NCBI GenBank assembly: GCA_027858895.1
Contig: JAQIBX010000029.1
Location: 1 to 32,006 of the forward strand
Source of the DNA: Desulfuromusa sp.
GTDB taxonomy: Bacteria > Desulfobacterota > Desulfuromonadia > Desulfuromonadales > Geopsychrobacteraceae
DNA: 32,006 nt
Direction of reading: 5' to 3'
Below are positions 3,153-19,094 of the stretch, in pieces (within the stretch, counting starts at the first letter, position 1; each line of letters starts with the position of its first letter). The notes under the pieces are model-generated. The model had not been told where the DNA came from. It saw only the letters and a list, made by a program, of their open reading frames with translations, and searched no databases. Made by a program: the position numbers and the translations under genes.

Positions 3153-6100
3153 CTAGTTCCCGGCGCGATCAATCCGGCCGAGGCGATTCATCATCTCTTT
3201 AAAAGAGATGGTTGGCGTGGTGGTTGTTATATCGATCCGAGGCGGGAGCAGCCCTCCGTGGACCAGGTATCTGTCCGAACCAGATAATGCCGTCCCCAGC
3301 AGGGTAAAGGTATCATTATTCAGTGAGCACTTGAAGCCGATCTTTTGATAACGGTAAAAATCGATGAAACGATAGATGCCTCGCGACAGTGCGGCCGACA
3401 TCCCACCCTGACTGATAATACTGAGATTGTTCAGAGCTTTGACGCTGATGTTGCGTTTTCCTTTAGCCCGGGTTGCAATGGCAGCGTCAAAAGCGGCAGG
3501 AGTGCTGCCGAAGAGTTGTAAACCATAGATATGTCCGTCAAGCAAGCCGTTCATCTCTCCGAAGTCGAAGGTTCGGGTCGCCTGCAATAGATCCAGGCCA
3601 GAGAAGTCGATATCAGTATGAAATGTCGGATAACTGGAGAACGGGTCACTGTAACGCATGTTGCGCAATTGAAATCGACCGCCAAAGACTTCGACGTTGG
3701 CGAGGCCGTCGGTGCTGAGTTGGCGGTTGGCATAGCGGAGTGTTCCTAAATTTGCGTTCAACCGACCCTGCATCACTGGCAGACCGAGTTTTTGTGTCAA
3801 GGTTTCAAGGTCGACTTGGGCAATATTGATTTTGGCTGAGCCTTGCGGCTTGCCAGTTGGCCATTTTAGAGTAAGATTTTCAATTTTCACTTGGCCACCA
3901 GCAAGCTGTAACAGAATTGGTGAAAGGAAGGAAAAACGGTTTCTTGCTGCGGTCAGTTCGAGGCAACCCTGCTCCAGGGTTGCCAGACCAGCGGACAACG
4001 TCTCGAAAGACATTTCGCCAGCATATTCTGTTCTAAGCCCCGACTCGCTCAAACCTTGCCCCGAGCTGATGGCAAAGGGAATAGTACCGTTTCCGCCAAT
4101 AATTTCCAGCTGCTGGCGATCCCAGTAGGCATCCACTTCCCTGAGTCGAAGGGCACCGTTGGTTTGCCAAACGTCAGAGTCCCAGCGCAGGTTATAGTCA
4201 AGAGACATGCCACCTTCGAGAGTCAGTCCTGCCAGTGCCGGTTTAAATTCACTCAAAAGCGGCCCGATCTGTTCCCCGTAGCTTTCAGCCAGGTCAGCGA
4301 CTTCTATGTGACCTTGTGTGCTGAAATGTTCCGGGCTGAACTGACCTTTCGCGGTCAGGAACCCGAGTTGCGGAAGGTTGATTTTAACTGAGCTAGCGGT
4401 CAATTTCCGTGTATCAGGTGCAAAGTTCCCGCTTAACAAAAAATCTCCCTGAAAGGCGGAAAGGTCGGCATAGAATTTACCCGCGAGCACTTCCTGGGCT
4501 GCGAAAGTTCCATTCAGTTCAAGCCCCATCGGGCCTTCCAGCCAGGATCCGCCGATGTTGCCCTGCAGATCGATAACTGCTTCGCCAACCCCTGTCTGCC
4601 CATCCGGGGCCATGTAGTTCAGGTGAGTAAGAGATAGTTGCTGCAGATCTAGAGAAAATTTCTTTGGCGAAAATTCCCCTGTACCCCGGACATTCATCTG
4701 GGCACTCAACTCGTCACCACGTGCAAGGGTGAAATGGATGGAAGTTTCTTCGAAACTGACCTGATCGGAGCTGAGATGTAGTTTCCCGCGGCTAACAACC
4801 TCTTTCAGGGTCAGGTCAGGCAGGCCAATATCATCGACAGTCAATTGGAAGTTTCCTGCCCAACCAGCTGCTTTTCTGGATAAGTTTCCTGCGACCATGA
4901 GTCCGGTTGCCGATTGTATCTGCCTGGGGATTTTCCCTGGAGCGAGCAACTTGGTGAAGTCCTGCAGATCTGACGCTGTTAGCGAAAAGTTCAATTGTTG
5001 AAAATTCCCGTCAACAGAAAGGAAAGGGCGTGAAGCCAGCTGCAGGTTGAGAGAGAATTTTTCTTTACGGTCGATAATGAGCAGCTTGCTCTGGCCGTTG
5101 AGTTTGCCGATATCGAGCAGGTAATCATTGTCAGGGTTTTTTACCGTGAGGCCTTGAATATCGATCGTCAGTTGAAATCTATCCTCCTGCAGAGAGTATT
5201 TTGCCGCCAGTTGTAATGCGCCGGTAATCTGCAGAGCCTGATCCCCGATAAGCTGAGTTTTGAAGTCGTCAGGATCAGGAACGTCCACCAGTACCTGCCC
5301 GGTTAAGTTGTTATTGTCATCAAGTTGGGTGCTGAAGTTGAAAGTTGATTTGGCCGGCCCTTGCAGCTGACCAGCAACTCGCCAGCCCTGCTGTTCCTGG
5401 TTGAGCAGAAGTTTGAGTTGAGAGAAATTTCCGCTCAGGTCGTTCCAGCCGATCTGGCCTTTCTTGACCTGAACTTCAAGGTCGATCGCCTGGTTTTTCA
5501 GGGCAAAGGTGATGCTTGCATCAGTGAGCGAAAAAGCCACTTCTTCGGGTAGCAGTGATGGCTGTCCAAGGGCTGTCAGGAGGCTCCGCAGCATGATGTG
5601 ATTAAATTGATCCAGATGTAAAATACTGTGACCCAGAGTGAGGTCAGACCCGGCGAGATTGATCTGCAGTGGAGCAGTAAGAAGCTGATGAGCCTGCCAT
5701 GAGAGGCTTTTTATGGTCAAGGTTTGCTGCTGGGATAGCTCGGCTGTCCCGGTGATGGCGACAGGATGGTTTTCATCAGGGCCGAAAAATGCGGAGAGGA
5801 TGAAATCACAATTTTGTTGCAGTGATCCTGAAAAGTTCAAATCATGTAGATTCCATTGGCGGTCGGCGCTATGGATCAATAGCTGACCGTTGGAAACTGT
5901 CAGATGTTTGATTGTCAGGGGCAGCTGGTCTGGCATTCTCAGGGTCGTTTTTGCCGGCTTGCTCTGGTTTCGTGACTGGACGATTTCAACGTGTGGTTGG
6001 GTGATGCGTAGCGCATCAAGCTGCCGGTACCAGAGTGATCGGGGGGTGAAGTTCAGTTCTATCCGCGGGACAACCACAAGGACTTGCTGCGGGACATTGA

Positions 6101-6308
6101 CGCTCAAGTCAAGGAACTCCAGCCCGGTTTCTGTCCAGACCAGTTGCCTGATCTGGACCTGTGCCTCAAACAATTGAGTCGCTATTTTTTCAACTTGGGG
6201 GCGAACAAATTGGTCCAGAATCTGATCAGCGTAAAGCCAGCAAATCCCAGCGAACAGGACAATCGCCAGCAACAGAATCAGGGCCATTCTGTAGATAAGT
6301 TTTTTCAT
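3153..6308 (-). CDS. ydbH: YdbH-like AsmA-superfamily intermembrane phospholipid transport protein
   Basis: A 1051-residue protein anchored by one N-terminal helix (LIYRMALILLLAIVLFAGIC) with the rest in the periplasm. The body is a long run of alternating beta-strand-like segments as in the TamB/YhdP/YdbH bridge proteins, which carry phospholipid between inner and outer membranes. The C-terminal ~100 residues, including NLSIISQGGMSAALSRGIYR and FKCSLNNDTFTLLG, are characteristic of YdbH. The start at 6308 puts a Lys-rich MKKLIYR before the membrane helix; a weak GCGGAAC precedes it. Pairing with ydbL immediately downstream supports the call. It is somewhat longer than the ~880-residue E. coli protein. 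The exact lipid handled is not known from sequence. Confidence 0.85.
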   Translation of the reverse strand: MKKLIYRMALILLLAIVLFAGICWLYADQILDQFVRPQVEKIATQLFEAQVQIRQLVWTETGLEFLDLSVNVPQQVLVVVPRIELNFTPRSLWYRQLDALRITQPHVEIVQSRNQSKPAKTTLRMPDQLPLTIKHLTVSNGQLLIHSADRQWNLHDLNFSGSLQQNCDFILSAFFGPDENHPVAITGTAELSQQQTLTIKSLSWQAHQLLTAPLQINLAGSDLTLGHSILHLDQFNHIMLRSLLTALGQPSLLPEEVAFSLTDASITFALKNQAIDLEVQVKKGQIGWNDLSGNFSQLKLLLNQEQQGWRVAGQLQGPAKSTFNFSTQLDDNNNLTGQVLVDVPDPDDFKTQLIGDQALQITGALQLAAKYSLQEDRFQLTIDIQGLTVKNPDNDYLLDIGKLNGQSKLLIIDRKEKFSLNLQLASRPFLSVDGNFQQLNFSLTASDLQDFTKLLAPGKIPRQIQSATGLMVAGNLSRKAAGWAGNFQLTVDDIGLPDLTLKEVVSRGKLHLSSDQVSFEETSIHFTLARGDELSAQMNVRGTGEFSPKKFSLDLQQLSLTHLNYMAPDGQTGVGEAVIDLQGNIGGSWLEGPMGLELNGTFAAQEVLAGKFYADLSAFQGDFLLSGNFAPDTRKLTASSVKINLPQLGFLTAKGQFSPEHFSTQGHIEVADLAESYGEQIGPLLSEFKPALAGLTLEGGMSLDYNLRWDSDVWQTNGALRLREVDAYWDRQQLEIIGGNGTIPFAISSGQGLSESGLRTEYAGEMSFETLSAGLATLEQGCLELTAARNRFSFLSPILLQLAGGQVKIENLTLKWPTGKPQGSAKINIAQVDLETLTQKLGLPVMQGRLNANLGTLRYANRQLSTDGLANVEVFGGRFQLRNMRYSDPFSSYPTFHTDIDFSGLDLLQATRTFDFGEMNGLLDGHIYGLQLFGSTPAAFDAAIATRAKGKRNISVKALNNLSIISQGGMSAALSRGIYRFIDFYRYQKIGFKCSLNNDTFTLLGTALSGSDRYLVHGGLLPPRIDITTTTPTISFKEMMNRLGRIDRAGN

Positions 6309-6490
6309 TGGGTTCCGCCAGCAGAAAAATATGGTCAAACATCTCTGCCTATTTTACCACAGGGCGAAGAGATATCTTATCCATGTTTCTCGGGGCTCTC
6401 AAAGCTGGTCAGCGTATCTTTCTGTATGTTATCTTGCCCGGTATAGTATCAGGAGATTGAAGCAGGAATCATCAGAATGCAGGACCCGAC

Positions 6491-9496: not shown

Positions 9497-10717
9497 ATGA
9501 TCCAGATTATTGAAAAGCAACTCTCAATTCTATTCCCGCGTCGGGAACATCTTCACGTGTTGTCCTGCCAGATTCCTAATACCCTTGAACGGCGCAATTT
9601 ACTCTATCGCCTGGTCAATCCTGAAAAAAACTGGCGAACCATTGAATCAATTTTTCAACTGGTCATTGAGGGCAAAGGGAACCTGAAGAAAATCAACTTT
9701 TTGTTCCTTCCGGAAACCTGCCTCCCTTTTGAAAAGCTGACACAAGCTTTGGCCTTACTTGATCAAATGCGGCCGAATACGGTCACGGTGATTGGTTTAG
9801 GCCCAATCGATCTGGCTACTTACAGGGACTTATTACAATCTTTTGCCGAAGATAATCAGGAAGCTCTTCAGTCAGTCCTTGAAGACATCGATTCCAGTGA
9901 TATCGAAGGTCTTCCAGTCAATAGCTGCATGGTTGCGGTGAAAGAGCAAGATGGCCGCATGCGGGTCTTTTTTGAAGCGAAGAGCCATCCTTTTGTTGGT
10001 GAAGAAAATCTCGATAGCGATCACAACCTATATCGTGGGAAGATATTTTCCCTGTTTCGTTGTAGCCCAAGCTGTTTTAATTTCATGGCTTTGATCTGCC
10101 TTGATTATGCTTATCGAGATCTATATCAGTCCAACATCAGCGTTATTATTGAAAAAGCTAATCAGCTTTTTTTTGAAACACGGCAACGACTTGATTTGTT
10201 GGCTGTCATTGAATGCAACCCTAAGCCCGAGCATTCGGCCTTTCGAGATGTCGCTAATGGATTTTACGGAGAGTATCTAGAGCGTTCTCCCGGCGTTAAC
10301 GATACCGTGACGCTATTTTGTAATGCATCTGAAGAGACACTGTGCACCGGGATTTCCCCAGGGGCAACCTTTGGTCACTCGTCGGTACTGCTGCATAAAA
10401 ACCATAAAATTGAACAGATAGATATGGATGAATACTCGACGGACGATTTTGGTGGGCTCCCAGTATGTCGCTTGCGTTTTGGTGCGGCGACCCGACTGTA
10501 CTATTTTAACTTACCTTTTTTTCATGAGCTCGATCCACGAACCACCCGCACCGCAATTAAGATTCATACAGTATTTAAACCTCATCAAGAAGGCTGGATT
10601 CGAGTTAATAGCGATGAAGTTCAACGAGAGGCAGCAGCTGTTCAAAAGGAAAAAAAGGTAGCATATTCAAGAAATATAAGGTCAATTGAAGGGCGGAGTG
10701 GGTCGGGGAGCACGTAG
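9497..10717 (+). CDS. Nitrilase-superfamily-like (carbon-nitrogen hydrolase) protein
   Basis: A 406-residue protein that I place in the CN-hydrolase fold from its catalytic triad: Glu73 in FLFLPETCLPF, Lys162 in FFEAKSHPF, and Cys201 in ALICLDYAYRDLY, followed by DLLAVIECNP. The order and rough spacing (Glu, +89, +39) fit nitrilases. Otherwise it resembles none of the common branches (NitFhit, NAD synthetase, Lnt, amidase). It has a long acidic insertion (about 115-140) and a basic, low-complexity C-terminus. There is no signal peptide or membrane helix, so it should be cytosolic. AGGTGAG lies just before the ATG. It stands in an AT-rich pocket between housekeeping genes and a palindromic repeat, suggesting acquisition. 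Nitrilase domains also occur in some antiphage reverse-transcriptase systems, but no reverse transcriptase is present here. Confidence 0.65.
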   Translation: MIQIIEKQLSILFPRREHLHVLSCQIPNTLERRNLLYRLVNPEKNWRTIESIFQLVIEGKGNLKKINFLFLPETCLPFEKLTQALALLDQMRPNTVTVIGLGPIDLATYRDLLQSFAEDNQEALQSVLEDIDSSDIEGLPVNSCMVAVKEQDGRMRVFFEAKSHPFVGEENLDSDHNLYRGKIFSLFRCSPSCFNFMALICLDYAYRDLYQSNISVIIEKANQLFFETRQRLDLLAVIECNPKPEHSAFRDVANGFYGEYLERSPGVNDTVTLFCNASEETLCTGISPGATFGHSSVLLHKNHKIEQIDMDEYSTDDFGGLPVCRLRFGAATRLYYFNLPFFHELDPRTTRTAIKIHTVFKPHQEGWIRVNSDEVQREAAAVQKEKKVAYSRNIRSIEGRSGSGST

Positions 10718-10966: not shown

Positions 10967-13609
10967 TTAAAGTCTTAACGAGTTGGGGTGATGTCCCTCA
11001 AACTCCGGTTGAACGGTATGACAGACCGTGCAGTCATTACCAATCGGGCGGTCATTGCCTTGGTACTGCAATGGCTGGATACTGTCTCGATTTTCACCCA
11101 GCAGATTAAAGGTTGCCGGATAGACAGCGTGGGGGCTGCTGTGACAGGCCGCGCACATCATCGCTTCCATCTGATCATGACGATTGCGGTACAAACCTTC
11201 AGCACCTTCTGTCCAGGTGTTGAACGCATCGGTTGAGCTGCCCATCTCAAAATCCACATGACAAGTCAGGCAATCAGGTTCATTGATCCATGGGGTACGG
11301 GGATTGATCTCTGCAACTGTTTCGACGGTTCGTGGTTTCAGGTTCTCCATCAGTCGAGCTGCACCTTTTTTACCGGCTTCAAGTTCTTTTTTCAGCAGGC
11401 TCAAGGAATGATCTTCCATGGTGCCGTGACAGTTGGTGCAGTCCATGAATTGGGCATGATGACTGCGGAAGCTCTGAGTTGGACCATCCGGACGGGACGG
11501 GTGACAGGCGACACAGGCCTGCATCCCTTCCCGGTCGGTCAGAAAGTTTGCATGCCAACCGTGGATCGCAGCTGAGAAATTGAGTAAATCCGGGTTCCCT
11601 TTGGTGCCCAGACGTGAATCGGCATGACATGACTGGCAGAGCATCGGCTCACCATTTTTTGCCTTTTCCACCAGATTGGTGCCGCTGTTTTTATCGTGAG
11701 CAGCGAGGACATCAAGGCTGGTCTCAGCAGTCACTCCAGCCACCCCAGCGACTTTCCAACCACCTCCATGGCAGTTTTTACAGCCCATCTCGGTCGATGT
11801 CGGGACCACTGTTTTGGTTGTTGCCAAAATTTCCCCGGTCGTTTCATCTGTGGCGGTAATGGTAAAAATTGGATACGGATTAAAGCGACCGTCCTCTGGA
11901 TAGGGAACCACTGGAACAGCTGCTGCGCTGAAGGCATGATGGTCTTCTTCAACTTGCATCGTTCCCGAGACTTTTAATCCTGTCATGCCAACACCAGGAG
12001 CCAGATCTGCTCCGAGTAATTTGTTGGCATAGTTCCAGAATTGAACTTTTTTTTCAGGGTATTCAAAGCCATCTTCGACCTGATAGCTGATTTTGACCCC
12101 TGCGGTGATGATTTCTGGAGAATCACCCCGTTTAACCAGCTGGGCAAAAATGTTATTGGCTGGTGGTTGTATAATCCAGTAGGGGCTGCTGTCCGAAACG
12201 GTGTGCATCGCCTGATCGTTCCAGGAAAGTAAAACGTATTCATCTTTTTCTTTGTCAAATGGGGGAATGGTCAGCGGAAGTTCCTTTTGTTCAACCACCG
12301 GATTTCCCATATTCATGTCATCAATATGATTCAGACCACTGACAATATAGTTAGCCAGTGCCCAACGCTCTTCGCGAGTGCCCATGAAATGTGGCATGTA
12401 GCCATTGAGTTTGCCGAGACCGTTCAGTTTGGCGTCCATGCCGAATGCATTGTCATATTTTTTGACCAATGGCTTGATATCGTTGAGGGGCCCATCGACC
12501 GAATGGCAGGCGCTGCACTGAAACTTGAACAGGTCCTGTCCTGCTTCCATCATGTTTTCGTCGGTGACTTTCTTATGCTTTGCCCATTTGGCCGTGGTCA
12601 GAAATCCAGCTTTCTGGACTTCCGGTACATCCTTGACGAAAACCTGATTCGAATACATGTGGTCGTAGATAATGAAGGGGCGTCGACCTCCCTCACGGAT
12701 GAATTCGAAGGCGCCGAAATAGACCAAGGCAATCCCAACAATGGCAAAACAGAAAACTTTCTGCAGACTGTTTGGCAGTTTGATGGTCATAACCATTGAG
12801 GCGATGAAAAAAATCGGCATCACCCAGGTCAATAGGAGTAGGTAGTTGGCGATTTCTGGAGATTTTTCCAGAATCATTGTTATTGCCGGCTCTGGGATTG
12901 CTTGGAAATACCACCAGCCACCTGCGATCATCAGGGTAAAGGGGATGGCAACCCAGGCAGCACAGGTGCGCATAATATTTTGCCGCAGTTTTTCGTCTTT
13001 TAGAAAAGCTGCCGTGACAAAGCCGAACACTCCGCAGAGGGTCAGGGAAATGCCGGTACGGAATATCAACGATGGCCAGAATGTCGGATTAAAGAAGCCC
13101 GACCAGAAGTTGTGGTTTTCAATCCAGGCGCCGGGAGTGAGCATGTAGCCGATAATCCCGTTGATCAAAAACAGTGACATCCAGGCGCTGATGAAATAGA
13201 GCCAACCGATGATGAGGTGGTTCTTCCGGTTCATCTTGCCGAAAGTATAAAAGTAGATGAACAGGGCGATGATTTCAGTGAGGAAGAAAACCCATTCTGC
13301 AGCCCAGCCGAACACAAAGGTATGAATCAGGCTAGAGGTTGCCGCCGGATTAAGCAGGGCAATGGTCCACCAGATTCCGACGCCGGTCAGTCCACCAAAA
13401 ACCATTGTGACGAGTAAGAAAAATTTACTGTGTTTTTTAACGTAATCAAGCAGCTGCGCGTTATCTTCTTTATAGGCCTTCTTTTCCAGCATGATCAGAT
13501 AAAGCCCACCGCCAACTGCGAAGTGTGAAACCAGAACATGGACGACAGCGACAAGCGCAATCAAAAAACCGCCACCATAAGTTGTCAGTTCCCAGACAGG
13601 ATAATTCAT
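10967..13609 (-). CDS. CydA-like membrane subunit fused to an eight-heme cytochrome c
   Basis: An 880-residue fusion. Residues 1-310 form about eight membrane helices resembling CydA of cytochrome bd: VHVLVSHFAVGGGLYLI (His24, His29) and EWVFFLTEI (Glu105, Glu112, cf. CydA Glu99/Glu107). Residues 350-430 are a class I cytochrome c (CSACH at 365; Met405 or Met409 as axial ligand). A beta-rich stretch (450-600) follows, then seven more CXXCH motifs at Cys610, 658, 699, 724, 780, 819 and 860. The c hemes should lie outside the membrane in the periplasm. Its start overlaps the stop of the upstream partner gene (ATGA), with a GGAGGTGA box. Likely role: electron transfer between a membrane b-type core and periplasmic c hemes, perhaps to O2 or another acceptor. 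The direction of flow is not visible. Confidence 0.85.
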   Translation of the reverse strand: MNYPVWELTTYGGGFLIALVAVVHVLVSHFAVGGGLYLIMLEKKAYKEDNAQLLDYVKKHSKFFLLVTMVFGGLTGVGIWWTIALLNPAATSSLIHTFVFGWAAEWVFFLTEIIALFIYFYTFGKMNRKNHLIIGWLYFISAWMSLFLINGIIGYMLTPGAWIENHNFWSGFFNPTFWPSLIFRTGISLTLCGVFGFVTAAFLKDEKLRQNIMRTCAAWVAIPFTLMIAGGWWYFQAIPEPAITMILEKSPEIANYLLLLTWVMPIFFIASMVMTIKLPNSLQKVFCFAIVGIALVYFGAFEFIREGGRRPFIIYDHMYSNQVFVKDVPEVQKAGFLTTAKWAKHKKVTDENMMEAGQDLFKFQCSACHSVDGPLNDIKPLVKKYDNAFGMDAKLNGLGKLNGYMPHFMGTREERWALANYIVSGLNHIDDMNMGNPVVEQKELPLTIPPFDKEKDEYVLLSWNDQAMHTVSDSSPYWIIQPPANNIFAQLVKRGDSPEIITAGVKISYQVEDGFEYPEKKVQFWNYANKLLGADLAPGVGMTGLKVSGTMQVEEDHHAFSAAAVPVVPYPEDGRFNPYPIFTITATDETTGEILATTKTVVPTSTEMGCKNCHGGGWKVAGVAGVTAETSLDVLAAHDKNSGTNLVEKAKNGEPMLCQSCHADSRLGTKGNPDLLNFSAAIHGWHANFLTDREGMQACVACHPSRPDGPTQSFRSHHAQFMDCTNCHGTMEDHSLSLLKKELEAGKKGAARLMENLKPRTVETVAEINPRTPWINEPDCLTCHVDFEMGSSTDAFNTWTEGAEGLYRNRHDQMEAMMCAACHSSPHAVYPATFNLLGENRDSIQPLQYQGNDRPIGNDCTVCHTVQPEFEGHHPNSLRL

Positions 13610-14679
13610 TTTGTCACCTCCTTGCGACAGCCAAAGGCAAGTTTAAGCATGTATCCAATCAGGGCTAAGCCGATGGCAAAGACCACCAGGAAAAAGATCA
13701 GCGGTGAATATTGTGGTTCCACGACCAGATCAGACAGTTGAAAGTAAGGTTTCAAGTAGGCAATACGAACCAAGTCACGCAAGAATATCATCACAATTAA
13801 TGTTAGCAGGGTGATGATAGATGCCAGAATGACTTGTTTTTTATAGCCAATATACAGAGCGGAAAATCCGAGAATAATTCCAATTAACAACAGGATCGTA
13901 GCCAAGCTACTGCCACCCATAAATACCATCATCACGTTTTTCGGCAGAGCAAGCAGGAACCAGAAACCGATAAAAATCTGAATTGCGGTGGCGTAGGTAA
14001 AATAGGTCATGCCTTGATCAATCAGAAACTCTCGATTAACGGCACTTTTCGTGAAACGGAAATGGGCCACAAGGGCGAAGAATAGTCCGGCAACTGCTAC
14101 TGCCCCAACGACAAAGTGAAGATAACGAGGGTATAAAGAAATGTCGCTCAGGTTAAGCAAAGTTCCCCCACCATTTTGGAAATAGGCCAGCCATTTTTCC
14201 GGTTGCAGCATCAGGGTCATATTGTTACTGAACATGAATCCGACAAACAGGAGAATGAGAACAGAAAATTCCAACATGAAGATGCGCGGGCTGCCTAAAG
14301 TCTCAAACTTAAAATCGTAGATATAGGCGCCATAATAGGCCAGGATCAGCAGGCCGAAGATGGAGAACCACCAGACTGCCATGAGAACTGAACTACTATA
14401 GATGAACTGGCCGTAAAGAACCTGGATAAATAGTAATGGAGCAACCCCCATATTGACAGCAAACGCGATAGTATAGGGCCATTTGTAGCCAAACTCTTTG
14501 TCCAACAGGGTGTTTTGTTCACCGCCGATAAAGGAACTGATCAGGGCAATGATGCCGCCACCAAGCATGACGTTCATGACCAGAATGTGCAGCAGAAAAG
14601 TTAGCATCAACAGAACATAGAACCAGCCCCAGGGAACGGAAAGGACATCAGGTGTGGGAATCAGTGCGGCAGGATTCAT
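13606..14679 (-). CDS. CydA-like membrane partner subunit
   Basis: A 357-residue integral membrane protein with about nine helices and no heme c motif. Its first helix, LLHILVMNVMLGGGIIAL, aligns with VHVLVSHFAVGGGLYLI of the downstream subunit: a shared His, then a GGG after eight to nine residues. The two subunits therefore look like paralogues, as in CydA/A'-type members of the cytochrome bd superfamily rather than classical CydAB. There is no recognisable CydB. The start at 14679 is supported by GGAGGAG five bases upstream; the frame extends ten codons further. It is the first gene of the two-gene operon and ends in the ATGA overlap with the octaheme subunit. Confidence 0.75.
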   Translation of the reverse strand: MNPAALIPTPDVLSVPWGWFYVLLMLTFLLHILVMNVMLGGGIIALISSFIGGEQNTLLDKEFGYKWPYTIAFAVNMGVAPLLFIQVLYGQFIYSSSVLMAVWWFSIFGLLILAYYGAYIYDFKFETLGSPRIFMLEFSVLILLFVGFMFSNNMTLMLQPEKWLAYFQNGGGTLLNLSDISLYPRYLHFVVGAVAVAGLFFALVAHFRFTKSAVNREFLIDQGMTYFTYATAIQIFIGFWFLLALPKNVMMVFMGGSSLATILLLIGIILGFSALYIGYKKQVILASIITLLTLIVMIFLRDLVRIAYLKPYFQLSDLVVEPQYSPLIFFLVVFAIGLALIGYMLKLAFGCRKEVTK

Positions 14680-14835
14680 CGACTCTCCTCCAAAAAAAAT
14701 TGTTAGCAATCAGTCCTTCTGTGGTCAACAGGCATTAGTATATCAACCCCTTCAATGAAATTCACTGTGGAAACTTAGCACGATAATTAGAAGAATAACA
14801 ACAAAACATACTAAGAAATGTACAGGTTTAGCTTC

Positions 14836-16965: not shown

Positions 16966-17754
16966 TTAGTCCAAGGCTTCCAGGGCCGCTGCCTCTTTTT
17001 TCTCTGTCAGAAATGGTTTTAACAGATCAATTGGCATGGGGAAAAGGATTGTCGAATTTTTTTCTGCAGCAATTTCGGTCATGGTCTGTAAAAAGCGCAG
17101 TTGTAGAGCACCTGTTTCAGATGAAATTTGTTTGGCCGCCTTTGCCAGGTTTGCCGAGGCTTCGAATTCACCTTTTGCATGGATGACTTTGGAGCGCCGC
17201 TCCCGCTCTGCTTCCGCCTGTCGGGCCATGGCGCGCTGCATCTCCGTCGGCAGGTCAACATGCTTGATTTCGACGTTGGAAATTTTTACTCCCCAGGGAT
17301 CGGTCTGGCGATCCAGAATCTCCTGCAGGTTGCTATTGATTTTGTCCCGTTGGGCGAGCAGATCGTCCAGTTCCACCTGACCCAGCACACTACGTAATGA
17401 TGTCTGAGCCAGTTGGCTGGTTGCATAAAGGTAGTTATCCACTTCGATCAAGGCTTTTTCCGGATGGACGACCCTGAAGTAGAGCACGGCATTGACTTTA
17501 ACCGAGACGTTGTCGCGGGTGATAATGTCCTGCGGGGGGACATCCATAACGACGGTGCGCATGTTGATTTTTTTTAGCTGATCAATGATGGGGATGATGA
17601 ATTTCAAACCCGGCCCTTTGACCCCGGAAAAGCGCCCGAGTCGAAAAACCACTCCACGCTCATATTCAAGCAGAATTCGAATGGCAGATGCGATAATCAG
17701 CACCACGAAGGCCAGCGCGATAATCAAGAAAAATCCAGATCCCAATCCAAACAT
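16966..17754 (-). CDS. Slipin (SPFH/band 7, stomatin-like)
   Basis: A 262-residue membrane scaffold protein. One N-terminal hydrophobic segment ([18 protein letters not shown]) precedes the SPFH domain (about 28-195), which has the stomatin-type sequence [20 protein letters not shown] and the signature [17 protein letters not shown] charged coiled-coil stretch ([18 protein letters not shown]) leads to the C-terminal hydrophobic [20 protein letters not shown]. Slipins oligomerise at the membrane and are paired with NfeD proteases; here nfeD lies immediately upstream with a 2-bp gap, so the two are surely co-expressed. Likely role: membrane organisation or quality control. Confidence 0.9.
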
Positions 17755-17756
17755 GT

Positions 17757-19094
17757 TTAGTCCTCCTCTGACTTGTTTGCTGTTGCCGAGCTAATTGTCT
17801 CAATTGCCTTGACCTTCAGGCTGAGCCCATCCATAACCCGAATAATTTCAATTTTTGTCCCGGTCGCGATCGGTTGGTCGGAGCAGGCCTGCCATGATTC
17901 GCCATGAACAAATACCCGTCCATTTCCATTGATCGGTTCGATGGTTTCGCCGGTTTTCCCGACCATACCTTCTTGCCCTGATGTGACTGGTTTTCGCTGA
18001 GTTCGGATCACCATCCCTGTGGCGAGGAGAAAAAAGCCGGCACTGACTGTCACTGTTGCGGCGATCACGGCTCGGGAAATCTGCAGGTAAGGTTCGCTGC
18101 TGTCGATCAGCATTAAAGAGCCAAACGCCATGGATATCATTCCGCCAAGCGCAAGCATTCCGTAGGAGATGACTTTTACCTCAAGGATAAACAGTACGAT
18201 GGCCAGCAGAATCAGTAAAACACCAATGTAGTTAATCGGTAGGGAAGAAAAGGAAAATAGTGCCAACAGAATGGCGATGGCGCCGATTGCACCGGGCAGA
18301 ACAACGCCCGGCTGGGAAATTTCGAAGAAAATACCGATGATTCCGAGCATCATCAACAGGTAGGCAATATTCGGATTGCTCAGAGCATTGAGGATGCTCT
18401 GCCGCCAGTTCATCTCAACCAACTCCAGAACGATAGCTCTATTTTCAAAGACCAGGACCTTGCCGTCACGGATATATTTGTAGCCGTCCAGTTGTTTCAG
18501 CAAATTTTCAGTATTGTCCGCAATCAGATCAATGACCGACAAGTCCAGTGCTTCCTGCGCGGAGATCGAGACGCTCTCACGGACCGCTTGCTCTGCCCAA
18601 TCCTGATTGCGACCCCGTTTTTGCGCCAGGCTGCGCGCATAAGCAGCAGCATCATTTTCGACTTTTTTCATCATAGTGCTATCGGGCTGTTTGCCCGCGC
18701 CGATTGCCACCGGGTGGGCTGCGCCGATATTGGTGCCGGGAGCCATAACGGCAAAATCGGCTGCAAGGGCAATGAGTGCTCCGGCAGAGGCCGCTCGTGC
18801 TCCTTGCGGAGCAACGTAAACAATGACTGGGATTGTCGAGTTTAATTCGGCTTGAATAATCTCGCGCATAGATGTGTCAAGTCCGCCCGGAGTATCGATT
18901 TGAATCAGGATGGCCGGTTCGTTGTTCTGGTTGGCGGTGTTGATCTGTTCGACTATGAATGAGGCGGTGACCGGGTTGATAGATGAGGCAATATTCAGAT
19001 AGCGCATCGATGATTGTATTGCACCACCAGCCTGGGGTGAAAGCCCAACGAGCAGCAATAGATTGAGAAGTATTTTAAGTAAAGTTTTCTGCAT
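17757..19094 (-). CDS. nfeD: NfeD1-type membrane serine protease
   Basis: A 445-residue protein. A signal-like N-terminus ([20 protein letters not shown]) is followed by a ClpP/SppA-like protease domain (about 30-220): [13 protein letters not shown], then [11 protein letters not shown] with nucleophile Ser103, and a Lys at 143/144 as likely base (Ser-Lys dyad as in archaeal STOPP 1510-N). Four to five membrane helices occupy about 230-370 and a C-terminal NfeD OB-fold domain runs from about 380 to 445. The archaeal homologue cleaves the C-terminal hydrophobic tail of its slipin; the slipin encoded next door has such a tail. It is divergent from yqeY. The Shine-Dalgarno is weak (AAGATGAAG). 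Confidence 0.92.

Follow-up and report, generated by a model that had tools for sequence, protein, structure and literature searches.

An octaheme CydA-like subunit and its CydA-like partner: a candidate cytochrome-fed bd-type oxygen reductase of anaerobic bacteria

Two adjacent genes on a contig of Desulfuromusa sp. (GenBank JAQIBX010000029.1, positions 1 to 32,006, the whole stretch analyzed here and termed the window) encode the membrane subunits A and B, the first of which is fused to a cytochrome c part with eight heme-binding motifs. Judging from sequence comparisons and structural models, we consider it probable that the AB complex is a quinone-independent bd-type O2 reductase, which would be fed by periplasmic cytochromes and serve the oxygen defence of anaerobes. 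Subunit A has the fold of CydA, conserves the residues of its two-heme active site and has lost those of its quinol site; it is obligately paired with B and carries a modular heme arm that a charge bias places on the periplasmic side. Bd-like enzymes that use cytochrome c and consist of paired CydA paralogues are already known as a general kind, and the octaheme version appears to be new: no description of the fusion was found in the part of the literature that we covered.

Subunit A and its heme arm

The two genes lie on the minus strand, B upstream of A with a 4-base overlap, and both open reading frames (ORFs) were confirmed. Subunit A (880 aa; 10967-13609 with the stop codon) matches PF01654 (Cyt_bd_oxida_I) at 45.3 bits, against a Pfam cut-off of 26.2, and hhalign relates it to ten canonical CydAs at 98.0%. 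Its AlphaFold2 model (built with 30 sequences; pLDDT 84.8, pTM 0.79) contains eight membrane helices in residues 13-309 (12683-13573), compared with nine in CydA. Residues 6-323 superimpose on E. coli CydA (7ose_A) with a Z of 32.2 and an rmsd of 2.8 over 315 aligned residues (VIA-align), followed by nine more bd chains (Z of at least 29.7) and then by ActC/PsrC folds (Z 16-18); matches ranked below these were left unused. The CydA homology that an earlier sequence-only reading of this DNA had proposed for the membrane part is thereby confirmed.

Behind the membrane domain follow a class I cytochrome c (residues 354-424; 12338-12550), with a CXXCH motif at 365-369 and a methionine, M405, found in 30 of 30 sequences, a beta-rich domain (residues 455-605; 11795-12247) whose strands are seen in the model and which separates the heme parts, and a seven-heme domain (residues 606-880; 10967-11794). 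For the beta-rich domain, the structure comparison returned unrelated beta-sandwich chains at low scores (Z about 5). In Pfam, A also reaches the cut-off (27) of the CBB3-type cytochrome c family and, towards the C-terminus, matches the MtrC/MtrF II-IV and C7 multiheme families. Altogether eight CXXCH motifs begin at residues 365, 610, 658, 699, 724, 780, 819 and 860, as the sequence-only reading had counted them, and each is retained by alignment column in all 30 aligned fused relatives; a gap within the last motif of one row (L056) makes a plain count give seven there. The seven-heme arm holds eight further conserved histidines, six of them in 30 of 30 sequences and two in 29. Eight extra histidines for seven hemes would fit bis-His electron carriers.

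This alignment comprises the window and 29 of 41 named loci. It omits near copies or truncated sequences (L023, L027, L028), loci at contig ends or fragmentary (L039, L057, L063), split genes (L051, L053, L054, L061) and broken reading frames (L052, L058). Conservation across the 41 loci, which belong to several phyla, excludes chance. The loops on the N-terminal side of the membrane domain have 0, 0, 0 and 1 Lys and Arg residues, against 3, 3, 3 and 2 on the other side. With the N-terminus outside and eight helices, the heme arm is therefore placed in the periplasm, where the sequence-only reading had also put it.

Heme and quinol sites

Residues were mapped through an hhalign profile alignment of A with ten canonical CydA sequences, using E. 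coli CydA numbers (H19, E99, E107, E445 and the others). The residues H24, E105, E112, E306 and R309 of A are the equivalents of H19, E99, E107, E445 and R448, and all five occur in each of 64 A sequences, whether minimal, short, split or fused. As a control, H19, E99, E107, H186, M393, E445, K252 and E257 were found in ten out of ten canonical CydAs. The Glu residues noticed earlier in one of the two subunits are confirmed.

The quinol site presents the opposite picture. At the position of the b558 ligand H186, none of the 64 sequences has a histidine; the window has F183, and the residues counted are Phe (46), Leu (8), Val (3), Ala (2), Met (2) and one each of Ser, Tyr and Thr. The M393 position is occupied by V263, K252 and E257 fall in gaps, and a 13-residue loop between helices 6 and 7 stands in place of the quinol loop. 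Subunit A consequently has the two-heme-site residues of the bd superfamily and lacks both the quinol loop and the b558 ligands of the canonical quinol-oxidising enzymes. The invariant R184 was considered as a substitute for H186 and rejected, the parsed alignment placing F183 at that position and R184 next to it. Another histidine, H96, lies beside the heme site and is conserved in 61 of the 64 sequences. According to titles cited in PMC8951039, E107 is tied to a cytoplasmic proton path, and E445 and E99 to proton-coupled electron transfer.

Subunit B and the pairing of the two genes

Subunit B (357 aa; 13606-14679; no CXXCH) matches nothing in Pfam at E<=10 or in NCBIfam at E<=1. Its predicted model (pLDDT 85.9, pTM 0.87) has nine predicted membrane helices and a CydA-like fold, with a Z of 29.2 and an rmsd of 3.6 over 334 residues against CydA (VIA-align). 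Foldseek returned nothing at E<=0.001 (best 1.8e-3), and its top 16 matches were cytochrome bd chains without exception, a mixture of CydA and CydB. Comparison of B with A by hhalign yielded probabilities of 94.7% and 95.9%, in agreement with the two CydA-like subunits proposed earlier. The His..GGG pattern that had been seen in the first helix of both is represented by H24 in A and H31 in B. Along with H31, at the H19 position, B retains H188 (the H186 position), M297 and R301 in 64 of 64 sequences; the active-site Glu pair is absent and the E445 position variable, only the H19 position of the active site being strictly retained, and here too a 13-residue loop replaces the quinol loop. A b558-type histidine may in effect have shifted to the partner. 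In line with the earlier reading, no CydB was found among the 15 window ORFs scanned with Pfam, a part of all those present, and B, the adjacent partner of A, has no match to PF02322.

Across 345 genomes of the phylum, the A core was detected in 67, B in 68 and both in 65, counts that ignore genome kinship. In 62 pairs A and B are no more than 2 kb apart, though in one of these (G367) both models match a single stretch. Genomes with only one of the two are accounted for by weak matches (G400, G475, G420), a distant CydA-like protein (G434) and a B gene at a contig end (G244). All 16 A-bearing genomes chosen for inspection also have B, unlinked cases included; the two genes are 1.83 Mb apart on the same contig in G320, and L041 and L046 come from genomes that have them on different contigs. 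Of the 41 named loci, 36 have B next to A, two (L041 and L046) are unlinked and three are cut at contig ends. The A-B pairing is obligate. The fused octaheme form of A is found in 15 of the 345 genomes, as open frames of 849-982 aa.

Architectures among relatives

The number of hemes attached to A varies widely. In contrast to the eight hemes of the window type, short forms of A with one to four hemes were found in 17 loci and in L189, A has one CXXCH in 11 loci, and a second architecture (one heme on A, two on B and a diheme neighbour) occurs in five. In every intact A that was inspected, one CXXCH follows the membrane domain, which suggests that electrons invariably enter the core by way of the class I heme. 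In a tree of A cores, fused and split forms share a clade that excludes the short forms (86/100, short of the strict mark), and canonical CydA is distant (100/100, with long branches). The split genes (L051, L053, L054, L061) nest in the fused clade, and three changes are needed on supported branches; their second gene begins, by eye, with a signal-like peptide. In Desulfovibrio cuneatus one protein unites the split seven-heme arm with a class III cytochrome c3 domain (PF02085; L061:7348-9165). This species was described from oxic freshwater sediment, according to a title cited in PMC4383621.

Homologues of the arm also exist as separate exported cytochromes in 11 loci. As the relatives without it, the split genes and the c3 fusion show, the seven-heme arm is a module that has been added on. 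We considered the arm as a marker of electron export and rejected it: in 11 of 12 stretches neither A nor B accompanies the stand-alone homologues, which therefore say little about export; in the twelfth (L154), no match was found among the ORFs chosen. Taken together, these architectures suggest that a single oxidase core has been re-equipped with donor modules carrying from one to eight c hemes.

Several further arrangements were noted. In L183-L187, a diheme SoxA/TsdA-like protein and a CBB3-type cytochrome accompany an A with one heme and a B with two, and in three of these five loci a four- or seven-heme cytochrome is nearby. L189:5933-7435, which immediately follows a short-form AB pair, encodes an eight-CXXCH protein with a Cytochrome_cB domain (PF11783). 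The A frame is broken in L052:6001-8683 and L058:3329-5888 (the complete genome of Desulfosarcina widdelii and Salidesulfovibrio brasiliensis, respectively), by either decay or sequencing error.

Comparison with known systems

Murali, Gennis and Hemp (2021) reportedly distinguish OR-C, OR-N and CydAA' as branches of the cytochrome bd superfamily. By its predicted anatomy AB would be a variant of this CydA-paralogue branch, with a CydA core devoid of a quinol site and a second subunit that is a CydA paralogue; the link to bd relatives with c hemes or paired CydA-like subunits, made in the sequence-only reading, holds. The likeness extends to cytochrome c as the likely donor, while AB adds the octaheme arm on A. 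OR-N is described as likely to take electrons from cytochrome c, not quinol, and OR-N1 and OR-N2 may pair as CydAA' (PMC10839748); the OR-N and CydAA' types are presented as putative O2 reductases that use cytochrome c, a role not yet proven by experiment (PMC10839748, PMC12342949). The bd-like oxidases of Nitrospira, whose function is unproven, cluster with c-type cytochromes (PMC6606698). Their layout resembles, by description, that of type II loci (diheme cytochrome, A, and B with two hemes), but the portion of that source consulted describes no fused seven-heme arm such as that of A.

Canonical CydAB resembles AB in the fold and active-site residues of A. However, AB has no CydB and no quinol loop, and A has no b558 ligand, one membrane helix fewer and a C-terminal heme arm. 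The cc(o/b)o3 cytochrome c oxidase of the sulfate reducer D. vulgaris is likewise an O2-reducing system, in which c553 is described as the feeding cytochrome (PMC4383621), although it is a heme-copper enzyme of unrelated fold. CbcBA of Geobacter, compared by description, also combines an inner-membrane subunit with a multiheme cytochrome c, but is said to move electrons between quinones and periplasmic cytochromes (PMC10553843).

Proposed function and alternatives

A lost quinol site, an intact two-heme site, a constant class I cytochrome c and the fusion to cytochrome c3 are together best fitted by a cytochrome-fed reductase, and O2 would be its likeliest substrate because the bd core carries out O2 chemistry and because of the context of single loci. 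From these features we infer heme binding and the following route. The seven-heme arm would take up electrons from the periplasmic pool of low-potential cytochromes (cytochrome c3 or PpcA-like proteins) and hand them on, by way of the class I cytochrome c domain, to the two-heme active site of A, with H24, E105 and E306 as heme ligands. Protons would come from the cytoplasm via E112, the E107 equivalent, which would make the reaction electrogenic. B, the obligate partner, would take the place of CydB, with H188 as a possible ligand of a b heme. The physiological role would be O2 removal, and perhaps energy saving, for anaerobes at oxic-anoxic borders. A more specific version is put forward tentatively, at somewhat less than even chances: the oxidase would need no quinone and would be wired directly to the low-potential multiheme pool of the periplasm, c3 or PpcA electrons travelling through eight c hemes into the bd-type site without a detour. 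If true, it would explain the periplasmic, hydrogenase-linked O2 consumption by sulfate and sulfur reducers, and AB would be, to our knowledge, the most heme-rich enzyme of the bd superfamily. In the cultured strains Desulfuromusa kysingii and Malonomonas rubra, where both genes are intact, the complex is a concrete candidate.

The direction of electron flow had been left open in the sequence-only reading, either to O2 or NO or from quinol outward. Its observations are confirmed and its interpretation is supported in part: the O2 or NO direction is favoured and the outward one disfavoured, since neither subunit has a quinol loop, A lacks a b558 ligand, the active site is invariant and the arm occurs fused to c3. 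An exporter modelled on CbcBA or CbcL of Geobacter, which would oxidise menaquinol in the membrane part and send electrons through the arm to periplasmic or extracellular acceptors, is accordingly unlikely. It would suit a set of genomes whose Desulfuromonadales names point to a group in which extracellular electron transfer is common, stand-alone arm homologues that are exported cytochromes, and the resemblance of both models to the quinone-binding NrfD-like ActC/PsrC fold (Z 16-19). However, the loop missing from B and the site lost from A, together with full retention of the residues for O2 chemistry, argue against it, and delivery to cytochrome c3 would be uphill from menaquinol.

A reductase of NO, or another detoxifying reductase with the same electron route, has a similarly low probability. 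The same anatomy would serve it, and resistance to NO, or a capacity to handle it, is reported for canonical bd enzymes. In addition, individual loci have a PF00141 peroxidase or a flavodiiron protein as a neighbour, the latter from a family with both O2 and NO reductases. Conversely, no NO-responsive site was found upstream, and the neighbours identified, among the minority scanned, are genes of O2 defence and not of nitrogen oxides. Less probable still is that O2 chemistry has been lost and AB acts as a charge-coupled electron relay or a redox sensor. Such a role would accord with a B that lacks the Glu residues, and catalysis is itself read from sequences and models; yet H24, E105, E112 and E306 are invariant in every form of A, including the minimal ones.

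Several results weigh against an O2 reductase for oxygen defence. Genes of six O2 and reactive oxygen species families occur near the pair in only four of 40 named loci (L060, L042, L059 and L047; a raw count over 470 kb), so that an oxygen context, strong though it is at individual loci, is not general. Upstream sites of the FNR, HcpR, NsrR or PerR type were absent apart from two chance-like matches in one locus. The genome of the window also encodes a canonical CydA, outside the window, and a heme-copper oxidase gene. Finally, a direct hhalign comparison of B with canonical CydA is not significant (0.6%, global mode), and the residue mapping of B relies on this weak alignment, though it agrees with the B-A and A-CydA alignments.

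Locus and neighbouring genes

The genome is 2.78 Mb in size and 98.66% complete (contig C183 holds the window), and the closest named relatives of the window are metagenome-assembled genomes (MAGs) and strains of Desulfuromusa. B starts with an ATG at 14679, preceded on the same strand by the ribosome-binding sequence GGAGGAG (14685-14691), which most close relatives retain in the alignment. Across the loci compared, no recurrent operon partner was found besides A and B.

Among the four loci with oxygen-related neighbours, a Desulfoplanes MAG (L060:1-14446) contains within 14 kb a canonical CydA, DUF4492, Fe-SOD, cytochrome c3, B and A, as well as a flavodiiron protein, rubrerythrin and Fur, and this contig is apparently an oxygen-defence island. 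CydAB is divergent from B-A in L042, the PF00141 peroxidase adjoins A in L059, and a rubrerythrin piece is near the pair in L047. A YeeE/YedE-type sulfur-transport pair stands directly upstream of B in L047:3288-4339 and L049:3926-4960, an arrangement that is not general. Elsewhere in the window, ORFs of 1061 aa (3153-6338, minus strand) and 406 aa (9497-10717, plus strand) had no Pfam match at the thresholds used, and an SPFH/Band 7 protein adjoins an NfeD protein (16966-19094, minus strand), which is a common pair.

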